From Candidatus Woesearchaeota archaeon (GTDB lineage Archaea > Nanobdellota > Nanobdellia > Woesearchaeales > JACPIF01), in the NCBI GenBank assembly GCA_016188215.1, contig JACPIF010000004.1:1-64000 (forward strand): a stretch of DNA of 64,000 bases, given 5' to 3'. The notes under the pieces were generated by a model that saw only the letters and a list, made by a program, of their open reading frames with translations, searched no databases and was not told the origin of the DNA. A program made the translations under genes and the position numbers. The first letter of the stretch is position 1. Each line of letters starts with the position of its first letter. This document shows, one piece after another, positions 18,288-25,840 of the stretch.

Positions 18288-18839
18288 TCATAATTCACCT
18301 CTTTTGAATTCAGGCAATAGCTTTTTCATCTCAAGCATGAACTCTCTTGCTCTTTTGAGAGAAGTATTTGCCTTCTGCTCCTGTATTGTTTCAGTCATAT
18401 TATACTGGAATCTGGAGCGCTTGCCCATTTCCATTGAATAAAATTCTATAATCTCCTCTGATTTAATGGAAGCGATCTCCAAAGCATCTTCTTTTGTGTC
18501 TTCGTATTCTTCCAGCAGGCCTTTCCTGATTTTATCCATAACCAAAACGATTAAGGCATCGCTGGTTACTTTATGGACTACCTTTGAGCCAGTCTTATAG
18601 CCCAGCTGCAATAAAACAGCGTTTGCAATGTAAAACATTGAATAATAGGAAATGACTACAACCCACAAATAAGGCCTAAGGGCGCTGTTCATGCACTCTT
18701 CAGCAAGATTCAATGACTGCTCTGCATTTTTTATATACATTTGCCTTGCAGTTTCGTTCTTCTCTTTTTTGATTAAGCCATCCTGCAGGTATTGGTCAAA
18801 GTTCTGCTTTGCCTCCTTTTTCTTATTTGTATCTATCAA
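18288..18839 (-). CDS. HEPN-domain protein (toxin-like) of a HEPN/MNT pair
   Basis: This all-helical 183-residue protein has the HEPN layout: RPYLWVVVISYYSMFYIANAVL in helix 2, GSKVVHKVT, and a late KRSRFQYNMTET segment comparable to the basic/Tyr motif of HEPN proteins. HEPN partners of MNT nucleotidyltransferases are ribonuclease toxins or inactive relatives. The TTG start is supported by a perfect AGGAGGTGAT seven bases upstream. The antitoxin-like MNT gene ends 59 bases upstream; an AAAAATC-CTT-GATTTTT hairpin lies between them. Confidence 0.72.
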   Translation of the reverse strand: MIDTNKKKEAKQNFDQYLQDGLIKKEKNETARQMYIKNAEQSLNLAEECMNSALRPYLWVVVISYYSMFYIANAVLLQLGYKTGSKVVHKVTSDALIVLVMDKIRKGLLEEYEDTKEDALEIASIKSEEIIEFYSMEMGKRSRFQYNMTETIQEQKANTSLKRAREFMLEMKKLLPEFKRGEL

Positions 18840-18898
18840 AAAATCACCTCCTGATCTCTTGGAGATGCTAAAAATCCTTGATTTTTATCATCAATCAT

Positions 18899-19480
18899 TC
18901 ACATCAGCCCGTAATACTGCTCTATTCCATATAAAATTACATTATTTTTTAAAGCTTCCTGTCCGACATTTGGCTCTTTTGCATTAACCATTTCAATAAA
19001 CTGGCTTTCCGAAAAAACCAATGGGTGCAAAGGCAGAGGCATGGAGCGGGCTGTCCTATTAATATCCTTTTCAAAGGCATCTTCAAGCCCGTCAGGGCAT
19101 ATAACCATTAAGTCGATATCAGAACTCTTTGTTTGTGTTCGCTTTGCATATGAGCCGAACAGCAGCAAAACATACAGCTTTGATTTTATGGCCCTCTTGA
19201 AGCTGCTGAGCATGACTGCAAGGTTCTTATCCTTTAAAATATCTTTTCTGCGCTCAAATTCCGCTTCAAAAACAAGAGGATGAACTATCTTGTTAAGCTT
19301 TACCCTGCTTGACTGCCCAAAAGTCTCAATCTTCACCAATAATGCTTTTTCCAGCCTTTTAATAATAGAATAAACATTTTTGTAGTCCATTTTCAGGGAT
19401 AGGGATATGCTGCGGATATTCAATTCTTCATTTTTGCTCTCTATGAGGAATTTTATAATAGTTGATTCTTTGCCTCTCAT
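18899..19480 (-). CDS. MNT nucleotidyltransferase with N-terminal HTH (antitoxin-like)
   Basis: The 193-residue protein joins a winged HTH (residues 1-70: NIRSISLSLKMDYKNVYSIIKRLEKA) to a minimal nucleotidyltransferase whose active motif is LFGSYAKRTQTKSSDIDLMV (GSx10DxD, about residues 108-127). Known MNT antitoxins AMPylate their HEPN toxin. The fused HTH suggests it also represses its own operon, and overlapping palindromes cover its promoter. First gene of the pair with the HEPN protein. Confidence 0.82.
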   Translation of the reverse strand: MRGKESTIIKFLIESKNEELNIRSISLSLKMDYKNVYSIIKRLEKALLVKIETFGQSSRVKLNKIVHPLVFEAEFERRKDILKDKNLAVMLSSFKRAIKSKLYVLLLFGSYAKRTQTKSSDIDLMVICPDGLEDAFEKDINRTARSMPLPLHPLVFSESQFIEMVNAKEPNVGQEALKNNVILYGIEQYYGLM

Positions 19481-20048: not shown

Positions 20049-21247
20049 CTAAAATAATGGAGCATATCCAAAGCGTTTTATGATATCAGTAGCTACTCTA
20101 TTTGCTTCTGCGATTTGCTCATCACTAAAAAACGCTTTTGTTTCTTTGAATTTCTGTTTGAAACCTTCACTATCTCCATTTTGTACTAATGTATTCCATT
20201 CAAGCACTGCCCGGACAAACTGCAGATCATGCTCTCTGATTGTTAGATCGTTAAATGCAGCCTGAAAAGCCTCTTCTTTTAGTTCAGGAGTTCTGCATAT
20301 GTATTCCATTTTTCCCAATTCTATGCGCGATATTGGTGTGCCACACAGCTGGGTCTCGAAGGGATTTTTCTTTAGTCTAAAATACATCACAGGCTCTGCT
20401 AAATTGCTAAGTTCAGAATTTGGTGTTCTTTCATTTGCAGGAATATTTCCCAGACTGTATTCTCCCATGACCTTATCGTCTAGTAAGAGGGGATTTTTTT
20501 GCCTTTGCCTAAAAACATACTCTATAGCTTCATCGACTGTTTCTCTAAATTTTGCTTCTTGCCCTGTTATCATGAGCGTAAAAAGATCGAACACCGCTGT
20601 AGTATACGCGTCAATTTGATCCTTGGCCCGTGGATTTAGCATCATTATGCCACCAGACACATGAGGCTTGCCAGACAAGACTCGTATTGTAGAAGAGGCT
20701 TTCATATTGCCAATACCGCCAATATACGCTGTATTTTGCCACGGAAAAAAACCGCAGTATTTCCATGCAGTTCCCCTGCTGATTGCTTTAAAATGCGCAG
20801 TTGCCTGCGTATCTGCAGTTTTATTATCATGCTCTTCATAGCTTCCTAATGGTATGATTTTACAGCCGAAGATATCAACCAGCACCTTCATTTGTTGGTA
20901 AACATCAGGAGAGATTCTGAAAGGAACTGTTGCCATAGCCTGCCCTTGAGTGGGGACTCCAGGTCTATATAATGTATGAACACCCATAGTTTGTACATCT
21001 TCAGGCAAAGAATCAAATGCCTGCACTGCAGGGGTCATAACAGATAATGCACTTACTACAACCGCACCTTGCTTGGTGGATGTCCTATTGTATTTGACCG
21101 CAGATCCAACATTTTCAACTTCCATGCAATAGAATTGTACGTCACTTACTCTAGCTACTGATGGGCCATCTTCAACCCCTGCCTTGCAAACTCAGGTGCA
21201 TAATAAGAGCCTATTTCACCTGCGCCATGGATACCTATTATAGCCAT
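20049..21247 (-). pseudogene. Prephenate dehydrogenase-like gene with a frameshift
   Basis: The long frame (20049-21125, 358 aa) looks like the middle and C-terminal part of TyrA: YEEHDNKTADTQATAHF aligns with the EEHD...TH motif, and TPISRIELGKM and GDSEGFKQKFKETKAFF match the dimerisation region. The missing NAD half begins upstream in another frame: MAIIGIHGAGEIGSYYAPEF from the ATG at 21247 supplies GxGxxG. One extra base in the C4 run at 21176-21179 would join both frames into about 399 residues. Codon use differs from neighbours. It may be decayed, a sequencing error, or a recoded gene. Confidence 0.7.
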
Positions 21248-21291
21248 CGACGAGACTATTCTAAGACGCTTTTTAAGCTTTGCGTCAACTC

Positions 21292-23131: not shown

Positions 23132-24442
23132 ATGGTTCCCATGCGAAGTATTGTGCCTATTTCCGAGCTTAAGCATTATGTAGATCAGGAAATAGAGGTA
23201 GCTGGATGGGTTGACACGCTGCGCGACCAGAAGAGGATGCAATTTCTAATAGCAAGGGATCATACTGGAAGGGTGCAGGCAATTAATGAAAAGAGGGGAG
23301 ACGAACTTGAAAGAACAATATCAGCTTTAACTCCAGAATCCGTTCTGTATGCCACTGGAAGAGTCGTGAGCAATCAAAAAGTTAAGTTAAATCAACTAGA
23401 GATTGTGCTTAGTGGGATAGATATTCTCAGCATCGCACAAACTCCTATACCTATTAATGAAACTGCAGCCCTTGAGGCGAGACTCGACTGGAGGTACATT
23501 GACTTGCGCAAACCTTCAAACAGATTAATATTCTTAGTACAGACTGAAATAGAAGCTGCAATGCGTGCATACTGGCTTGAACATGGTTTTATAGAGATAC
23601 ATTCACCAAAGCTAGTAGAAGGAGCCACTGAATCTGGTGCAGAGCTATTTCAGCTTGAATATTTTGGTAAAACAGCCTCACTTGCTCAATCCCCACAGTT
23701 CTATAAGCAGATGGCAATGGCCGCAGGCTTCAACAGGGTTTTTGAAATAGGACCCGTGTTTAGAGCAAATCCCTCATTTACATCCCGGCATGATACTGAA
23801 TTTACAAGTATTGACATGGAAATATCCTGGATAGAATCACACGAGGATGTCATGGCATTTGAAGAGCGTTGGCTTCAATATGCATTAGGAATAGTAGCAG
23901 CTAAGTATGGCAAAGAAATAAAGGAACATTTCGGTGTTGAATTAGGTGTTCCCAGCGTTCCATTTCCCAGGGTTTCCATGAAGGAGGCATACGATATTTT
24001 GCAAAGTAAAGGATACGAGCCTCCAGAAAAGGGAGACCTTGATCCAGGGGGAGAGCGGACCCTTGCACAACATATTAAAGAGAAGCATGGGCATGAGTTC
24101 GTCTTTGTGAAAGATTATCCTATTTCAGTGCGTCCCTTTTACCATATGCGGCACGCTGGCAGGCCAGACACTACGCGAAGTTTTGATCTTATCTGGAATG
24201 GCCTTGAAATTACTACTGGAGCACAGCGCGAGCACAGGTATGAACCACTCTACCAGCAGGCAATTGAGAAGGGAGTAAATCCTGACTCCATTAAACACTA
24301 CTTAGAGTTCTTCAAGCATGGATGCCCCCCTCATGGAGGCTTTGGAATGGGTCTAACAAGAATACTTATGAACGTACTAGGCCTTAGAAATGTTAGGGAG
24401 GTCACCTTCCTGTACCGAGGTCCAAATAGATTAGTACCATAA
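23132..24442 (+). CDS. aspS: Aspartyl-tRNA synthetase (archaeal/nondiscriminating type)
   Basis: This class IIb synthetase of 436 residues has an N-terminal OB-fold anticodon domain (EVAGWVDTLRDQKRMQFLIARD) and a catalytic domain with motif 2 VFRANPSFTSRHDTEFT and motif 3 GGFGMGLTRILMNVLGL. The end EVTFLYRGPNRLVP resembles the AspRS type that also serves tRNA-Asn in organisms with GatCAB. The gene is AT-richer than its neighbours. A TATA-like ATATATTTATAAAG lies about 35 bases upstream, and an aaRS-like paralogue follows directly. Confidence 0.92.
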   Translation: MVPMRSIVPISELKHYVDQEIEVAGWVDTLRDQKRMQFLIARDHTGRVQAINEKRGDELERTISALTPESVLYATGRVVSNQKVKLNQLEIVLSGIDILSIAQTPIPINETAALEARLDWRYIDLRKPSNRLIFLVQTEIEAAMRAYWLEHGFIEIHSPKLVEGATESGAELFQLEYFGKTASLAQSPQFYKQMAMAAGFNRVFEIGPVFRANPSFTSRHDTEFTSIDMEISWIESHEDVMAFEERWLQYALGIVAAKYGKEIKEHFGVELGVPSVPFPRVSMKEAYDILQSKGYEPPEKGDLDPGGERTLAQHIKEKHGHEFVFVKDYPISVRPFYHMRHAGRPDTTRSFDLIWNGLEITTGAQREHRYEPLYQQAIEKGVNPDSIKHYLEFFKHGCPPHGGFGMGLTRILMNVLGLRNVREVTFLYRGPNRLVP

Positions 24443-25840
24443 GTGGTCCAGATGATACAATGCGTGGAAGAGGTTGTCGCGACAGCAGTCGCAGGTTACA
24501 ACTGTGACATAACTGGCAGAGTCACTGCTGTAAGGAAACATAGTAATGTACTCTTTCTTGATGTGGAGGATCATACCGGCAAAGTACAAATTGTAGTTGA
24601 AAAAACCCGCAATGATATATTTGCTCAAGCCTCACATATTACACCAGGTTCTTACATTACTGTTAGTGGCACCTATGGCAGTGAGGGGCTCTTGCAGCCG
24701 GAAATACTGGCAGCTTCACTCACCGTGGAATCCTTAGCTACATTAGCGATGTCACCCCTGCCTTGGGAAATTAACGGCCTTCATCACCGACATGGTAAGC
24801 AGATATTTGATTTCCCGGGATATTATCTTGCAAACCCACAGCGTGCCTCTGTACTTAGAATCAAGACAAACTTTGTCTTGGCTCTACACCGATACTTTCA
24901 GGATAACAAATTTACACTGGTAGAACCTCCAATTCTTACAGATAAGGTTCTTTATACGCCCGAATCCGCAGTGAGAGCACAGTTACATGGCGAAGAGGTT
25001 TTTCTTTCACAATGCGCAACCTTTGAGCTTGAGCCGCTGGCAATGGTCTTTAAAAAAGTATATACTATCTCCCCTGCTTTTCGCAACGAGCCTGCTGGCT
25101 CCAAGCGCCACTTGGCTGAATATACCCATGTCAAGGCTGAAGTGCTATTTGCTGATTTGGACAGCCTAATACATCTTGCTAGTGAGGCCCTATATCAAGC
25201 ACTTGAGAATTGCCTTTCAAAAAGCGAACTGGAACTTTCAATGATAAAGACTGATATCAATCTTGACAAAATGCACCCAAAAAATCATGTTAGGATAACT
25301 TATGATGAAGCTTTTAAAATTGCCCAGGCAGCCGGCTCTTCTACAGAATATAGTCACGGGCTTACAGATTTTGATAAGCAATCAGTGACACGTCACCTTG
25401 ATGAAGTCTATGTTTGGGTTATGTTTCCGCCCTTTGATAGCGAGGGGTTTCCTTACCGCAGGAAAAGTGATGCACCTCACCTTTCAATGGTGGCTGATTT
25501 GATAGCTCCCAATGGCGCTGGTGAATTGGTTGGTGTTGCAGAGAAGATAGCCAATGCTGAAGAATTGATAGAAAACTTAATCTTAAAAGGTAAAGGCCGT
25601 GAAATTAGGCAATACTGGGATTATATTCTGCTCCGAAAACAGGGTATGCCCCCCCATGGAGGATTGGGCGCAGCACCTGAACGAATTCTCTATGGCCTCC
25701 TTGGGCTGAATCATATAAGACTAACTAAGCCCTGGCCACGGTACCCTGACAGACACATAAACTCCCAACCTGAGAAAGAGCTTAATCCATGGAGGGACGA
25801 AGATCTCGATAGATTAATCAAGAAATATAATATAACCTAA
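24443..25840 (+). CDS. AspRS/AsnRS-like class II synthetase paralogue
   Basis: The 465-residue protein has an N-terminal OB-fold (CDITGRVTAVRKHSNVLFLDVED) and a class IIb core: motif 2 AFRNEPAGSKRHLAEYTHVKAE and motif 3 HGGLGAAPERILYGLLGL. The end HIRLTKPWPRYPDRHI resembles AsnRS-related proteins rather than true AspRS. It may charge tRNA-Asn, or be one of the synthetase-derived amino-acid ligases. It begins at a GTG abutting the aspS stop (or at ATG 24452). It shares the AT-rich composition of aspS, suggesting joint transfer. Confidence 0.75.
   Translation: MVQMIQCVEEVVATAVAGYNCDITGRVTAVRKHSNVLFLDVEDHTGKVQIVVEKTRNDIFAQASHITPGSYITVSGTYGSEGLLQPEILAASLTVESLATLAMSPLPWEINGLHHRHGKQIFDFPGYYLANPQRASVLRIKTNFVLALHRYFQDNKFTLVEPPILTDKVLYTPESAVRAQLHGEEVFLSQCATFELEPLAMVFKKVYTISPAFRNEPAGSKRHLAEYTHVKAEVLFADLDSLIHLASEALYQALENCLSKSELELSMIKTDINLDKMHPKNHVRITYDEAFKIAQAAGSSTEYSHGLTDFDKQSVTRHLDEVYVWVMFPPFDSEGFPYRRKSDAPHLSMVADLIAPNGAGELVGVAEKIANAEELIENLILKGKGREIRQYWDYILLRKQGMPPHGGLGAAPERILYGLLGLNHIRLTKPWPRYPDRHINSQPEKELNPWRDEDLDRLIKKYNIT

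Follow-up and report, generated by a model that had tools for sequence, protein, structure and literature searches.

The window, that is, the whole 64,000-nucleotide stretch of DNA that was analysed, carries on its minus strand a TyrA-like gene that is split between two reading frames. The features of the locus, in the direction of reading of the gene, are as follows:

21269..21278, minus strand: a TATA-like AT-rich stretch, GCTTAAAAAG, read directly from the sequence and lying ~25 nt ahead of the upstream start codon
21155..21247, minus strand: the 5′ remnant of the TyrA-like gene, with the start codon and 24 N-terminal codons (β1-GxGxxG-αA)
21165..21179, minus strand: the putative deletion junction, GGGGTTGAAGATGGC, placed by a spacing count and by the unmatched profile positions 27-49
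20049..21125, minus strand: the 3′ remnant, 358 aa from the ATG at 21125, without an internal stop

The upstream ATG at 21247 opens the peptide MAIIGIHGAGEIGSYYAPEFARQGLKMAHQ, which is out of frame past the first 24 codons and is ended after 30 aa by a TAG (21157-21155); the peptide of this frame that carries the GxGxxG motif is MAIIGIHGAGEIGSYYAPEFARQG. The AT-rich stretch before it would fit the promoter of a putative leaderless archaeal transcript. The frame of the 3′ remnant opens after a stop near 21191; its first start codon is the ATG at 21125, and it contains the end of the Rossmann domain, the PDH dimerisation domain and a long helical C-terminal extension. The positions 21176-21179 read GGGG on the minus strand (CCCC on the plus strand), and a one-base change at this run puts the two frames in register.

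The 358-aa ORF matches Pfam PDH_C with an E value of 0.0011 and 19.7 bits, just under the cut-off of 22 bits, and the NCBIfam prephenate dehydrogenase models with E values down to 8.7e-11, all under the curated cut-offs. When the window was cut into its 1,798 stop-to-stop frames and all of them were scanned with a family profile built from 16 intact relatives, the 358-aa frame ranked first (profile positions 50-416, 373.9 bits), a collinear homology to ~420-aa proteins that includes the C-terminal extension. The second rank among the same frames was taken by the upstream frame (positions 3-26, 11.7 bits, E 0.0066), which lies directly upstream of the main match, on the same strand, in the right order and collinear with it, while the profile positions 27-49 have no matching frame among the 1,798. 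Since the second-ranked match has the right order and strand, the peptide MAIIGIHGAGEIGSYYAPEFARQG is, by this homology, the true N-terminus of the TyrA-like gene, and the ORF 20049-21125 corresponds by its profile match to the C-terminal five-sixths of a ~420-aa TyrA-family protein. An earlier, sequence-only reading had taken the frame 20049-21125 for part of a split tyrA-like gene with its GxGxxG motif encoded upstream in another frame; the Pfam, NCBIfam and profile matches bear out the former and a second-ranked match beyond chance the latter, and the comparison with relatives proposed there reveals that the relatives start upstream and that the upstream peptide is homologous to them. The C-terminal helical dimerisation/substrate domain, with its His, HD..Q and Arg residues, is present in the 358-aa ORF, whereas the N-terminal Rossmann NAD(P)-binding domain is incomplete, with GxGxxG in the upstream frame only and β2-αB-β3 missing. 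The window gene descends from the TyrA family and its present copy encodes no complete member. A fold predicted for the window ORF from its single sequence has a pLDDT of 35, too low to be informative.

The three closest matches in the same archaeal order are 40-44% identical, 418-431 aa long and uninterrupted, and more relatives came up when the order was searched with a profile. A genome-contig search with the window ORF alone gave no match, and an alignment of relatives was needed as the query; with a profile of the order relatives run against a public genome set, the best 80 of 283 relatives come from DPANN archaea (labelled Pacearchaeota, Woesearchaeota, Nanoarchaeota, Micrarchaeota and Nanohalarchaeota) and from Bacteroidota, the latter mostly Sphingobacteriaceae. 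On a tree, the window protein groups within the large-form clade with four archaeal members, with a support of 98/100, to be read with the caution due to a long branch. The intact relatives match the PDH_N (PF02153) and PRK08655 profiles, and a structure model of one of them (mean pLDDT 89.4) finds its best PDB matches in the soybean and bacterial prephenate dehydrogenases, which suggests that they fold like the solved enzymes. The window ORF matches PDH_C (PF20463) and the NCBIfam PRK08655.1-x models weakly and retains H117, the HD..A.TQ motif and R215, but unlike the family it is missing a piece of the Rossmann fold; the members described here also differ in their length of ~420 aa, in their long helical C-terminal extension and in scoring under the NCBIfam cut-offs. 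By its sequence and the modelled fold of its relatives, the window gene is a TyrA.

The large-form TyrA of Sphingobacteriaceae (Pedobacter, Mucilaginibacter, Daejeonella) is ~60% identical to the intact archaeal members, alignable with them over the full length, equally long and likewise encoded by a stand-alone gene. It is the only TyrA-like match in four of the five Sphingobacteriaceae tested, which suggests that it may serve as their TyrA. In length and several motifs the large form presumably also resembles yeast Tyr1, a fungal TYR1-type prephenate dehydrogenase, a likeness that we take as a lead only. Some archaeal and fungal TyrA proteins have been grouped in one broad clade (PMC5681985) and the yeast TyrA has been treated as a cluster of its own (PMC1173090), and the passages concerned do not describe DPANN members. 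Fitness data are available for divergent TyrA candidates at large (PMC7311316). No paper was found in literature searches on prephenate dehydrogenase in Woesearchaeota and on large-form TyrA in archaea. Further TyrA-like proteins of ~440 aa occur in the same archaeal order (L016, L028-L032 and L034), of which L028-L031 group apart on the tree in a clade with full support, and two genomes (G009 and G052) have two TyrA-like genes each.

The size of the lesion follows from the number of residues between a conserved Gly and a conserved Asp of the intact relatives (residues 23 and 52 in L004). This spacing is 28 residues in 84 of 85 intact relatives and 29 in the remaining one, whereas in the window only 5 nt separate the codons matching the conserved G and D; the missing sequence thus amounts to 79 nt relative to the 84 and to 82 nt relative to the one. 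As 79 is 3n+1, a single added base seems to mend the frame. The sequence-only reading had accordingly suggested a one-base indel in the C4 run, and an added base at 21176-21179 does join the frames; the residues DVQFYCMEVENVG, however, do not then fall in the expected place but ~26 residues too early, and a single-base indel as the lesion is rejected on account of the fixed spacing in the 85 relatives. In the model of the intact relative, β2 (25-29), αB (32-41) and β3 (47-49) all lie within the missing stretch, and the 3′ remnant begins in the middle of the Rossmann sheet. Judged by this model, the deletion takes these three elements out of the Rossmann fold, a region through which such folds normally contact the adenosine ribose of the cofactor. 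One added base reopens the frame without restoring the cofactor site.

The same geometry bears on programmed frameshifting at the GGGG run, the expression mode that had also been considered for this gene. A shift at the run does bring the two frames together, but the joined product would still be without β2-αB-β3 and ~26 residues short, and each of the relatives has one continuous frame, with no split gene among them. Neither a complete functional product nor a conserved arrangement is therefore found, and because the joined product would stay incomplete, we regard frameshift expression as highly improbable.

Each remnant, in its own frame, shows a coding-like codon usage, as do all thirds of the 358-aa ORF, which as a whole lies at the low end among the window genes. 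The 358 codons contain no stop, and long neutral drift without one is unlikely, since 3.8% (weighted) of the possible single-base changes would create a stop; the upstream 24 codons in turn retain GxGxxG. As the two remnants have stayed conserved and coding-like, and the 358 codons free of stops, we infer that the break is either recent or not real, i.e. an assembly artefact. The protein itself has evolved unusually fast, its terminal branch measuring 2.04 where the tree median is 0.22 (about nine times, with the usual caution for long branches), which suggests that relaxed or changed selection preceded the break. It keeps 65 of 99 near-invariant positions, the lowest proportion of the archaeal members tested, the next lowest being 76 of 110. 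The window ORF nevertheless keeps 28 of the 36 positions that are conserved across both the large-form family and the second, ~440-aa subfamily, among them H117, H166, D167, Q174 and R215; the losses include T93, Y224 and H307, of which T93 and Y224 are universal in TyrA. Genome-wide fast evolution is not supported as the cause of the long branch, the aIF2-γ of the source genome being an ordinary 62-68% identical to that of relatives of the same order. Given the long branch, the retained core residues and the lack of a genome-wide acceleration, the gene probably evolved rapidly while it was still coding, and the break came afterwards.

Both a decayed gene and an assembly error, as envisaged in the sequence-only reading, hold up as explanations of the break, though with different weight. 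Were the gene of the organism intact and ~79 nt dropped by the assembler or in the consensus from what is probably a metagenome-assembled contig, both halves would be expected to look conserved and coding, as they do, and the catalytic core to be largely kept. A drop of 79 nt, however, requires more than a homopolymer miscall, the neighbouring genes of the window are open and appear full-length, and the length of the branch points to a change in selection before the break, so that an artefact seems unlikely, if by no means negligible. Somewhat less likely still is that the downstream ORF, starting at the ATG at 21125, is a living truncated protein in which the TyrA dimerisation/substrate domain has taken on a cofactor-independent role. 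The 358 open codons with coding-like usage in all thirds, the deeply conserved positions that are kept, including the five named above, and a long but constrained branch with too many changes for stop-free neutral drift would all agree with such a protein. The upstream remnant, on the other hand, is still conserved, where decay would be expected had the deletion been old; none of the 85 counted relatives is truncated and all have the full spacing; the TyrA-universal T93 and Y224 are changed; and the ORF would start in the middle of the Rossmann sheet. In its fullest form, namely a fast-evolving substrate/dimerisation domain that has shed half of the cofactor site and taken up another function in an archaeon in which no chorismate pathway is detected, this proposal appears rather improbable.

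The genomic context is informative as to why such a gene could be lost. In the source genome, which is 91% complete, no second TyrA-like copy, no chorismate synthase and no chorismate mutase (PF01817) were found, and no chorismate-to-tyrosine pathway is apparent. Since neither a second copy nor a chorismate synthase was detected, the organism could probably do without the enzyme, whose substrate it presumably does not make. Chorismate synthase likewise went undetected in 15 archaeal genomes that carry the large-form gene intact (3 + 12), while the search was positive in control genomes and in a Pedobacter genome; the completeness of the genomes searched is 69 to 100% where known, so that single absences are weak but the pattern is consistent. 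The large-form proteins L018-L025, L048-L056 and L064 belong to this observation. Pedobacter sp. PAMC26386, the one Sphingobacteriaceae genome tested for it, has both the large-form TyrA and chorismate synthase, in contrast to the archaeal carriers tested. Around ten archaeal intact genes no conserved gene neighbourhood was seen, and the gene stands alone.

We therefore consider it probable that the TyrA-like gene was recently inactivated by a 79-nt out-of-frame deletion, in an organism that appears to be without the pathway that the enzyme served, and infer that the organism itself carries the deletion and that it is recent. Before the break, the gene would have stood alone and intact, encoding a TyrA-family dehydrogenase of the large form (~420 aa), predicted to be NAD(P)-dependent and to act most likely on prephenate or arogenate. 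A single deletion in the archaeal lineage would then have inactivated it by stripping β2, αB and β3 from the nucleotide-binding fold, with the N-terminal 24 codons fused to the wrong frame and stopped after 30 aa, and the remainder left as an open frame that may be untranslated or uselessly translated. Such a pseudogene would be of a fairly ordinary sort and a known kind of thing. Against it, the downstream ORF is long, open and well conserved at the deeply conserved positions, which fits a surviving truncated protein too, and the pathway genes that were not found may be located in the portion of the genome that is not assembled.

Taken alone, the locus would be a minor instance of gene loss in an archaeon with a small genome. 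It also illustrates that a frame seemingly mended by one base can hide a much larger deletion, the size of which is revealed at once by relatives. A mildly interesting by-product is the large-form TyrA kept by archaea that seemingly make no chorismate, and the 15 archaeal carriers without chorismate synthase raise the question whether prephenate or arogenate is imported or the enzyme acts on another substrate.

Elsewhere in the window, an adjacent pair at 18288-19480 on the minus strand, consisting of a HEPN-domain gene (PF05168) and a gene for a nucleotidyltransferase that begins with a wHTH-like region, resembles toxin-antitoxin-type pairs of the HEPN-MNT kind. On the plus strand, 23132-25840 holds two class II aminoacyl-tRNA-synthetase-like genes, putatively of the Asp/Asn type, which abut each other, the first ending at 24442 and the next beginning at 24443.
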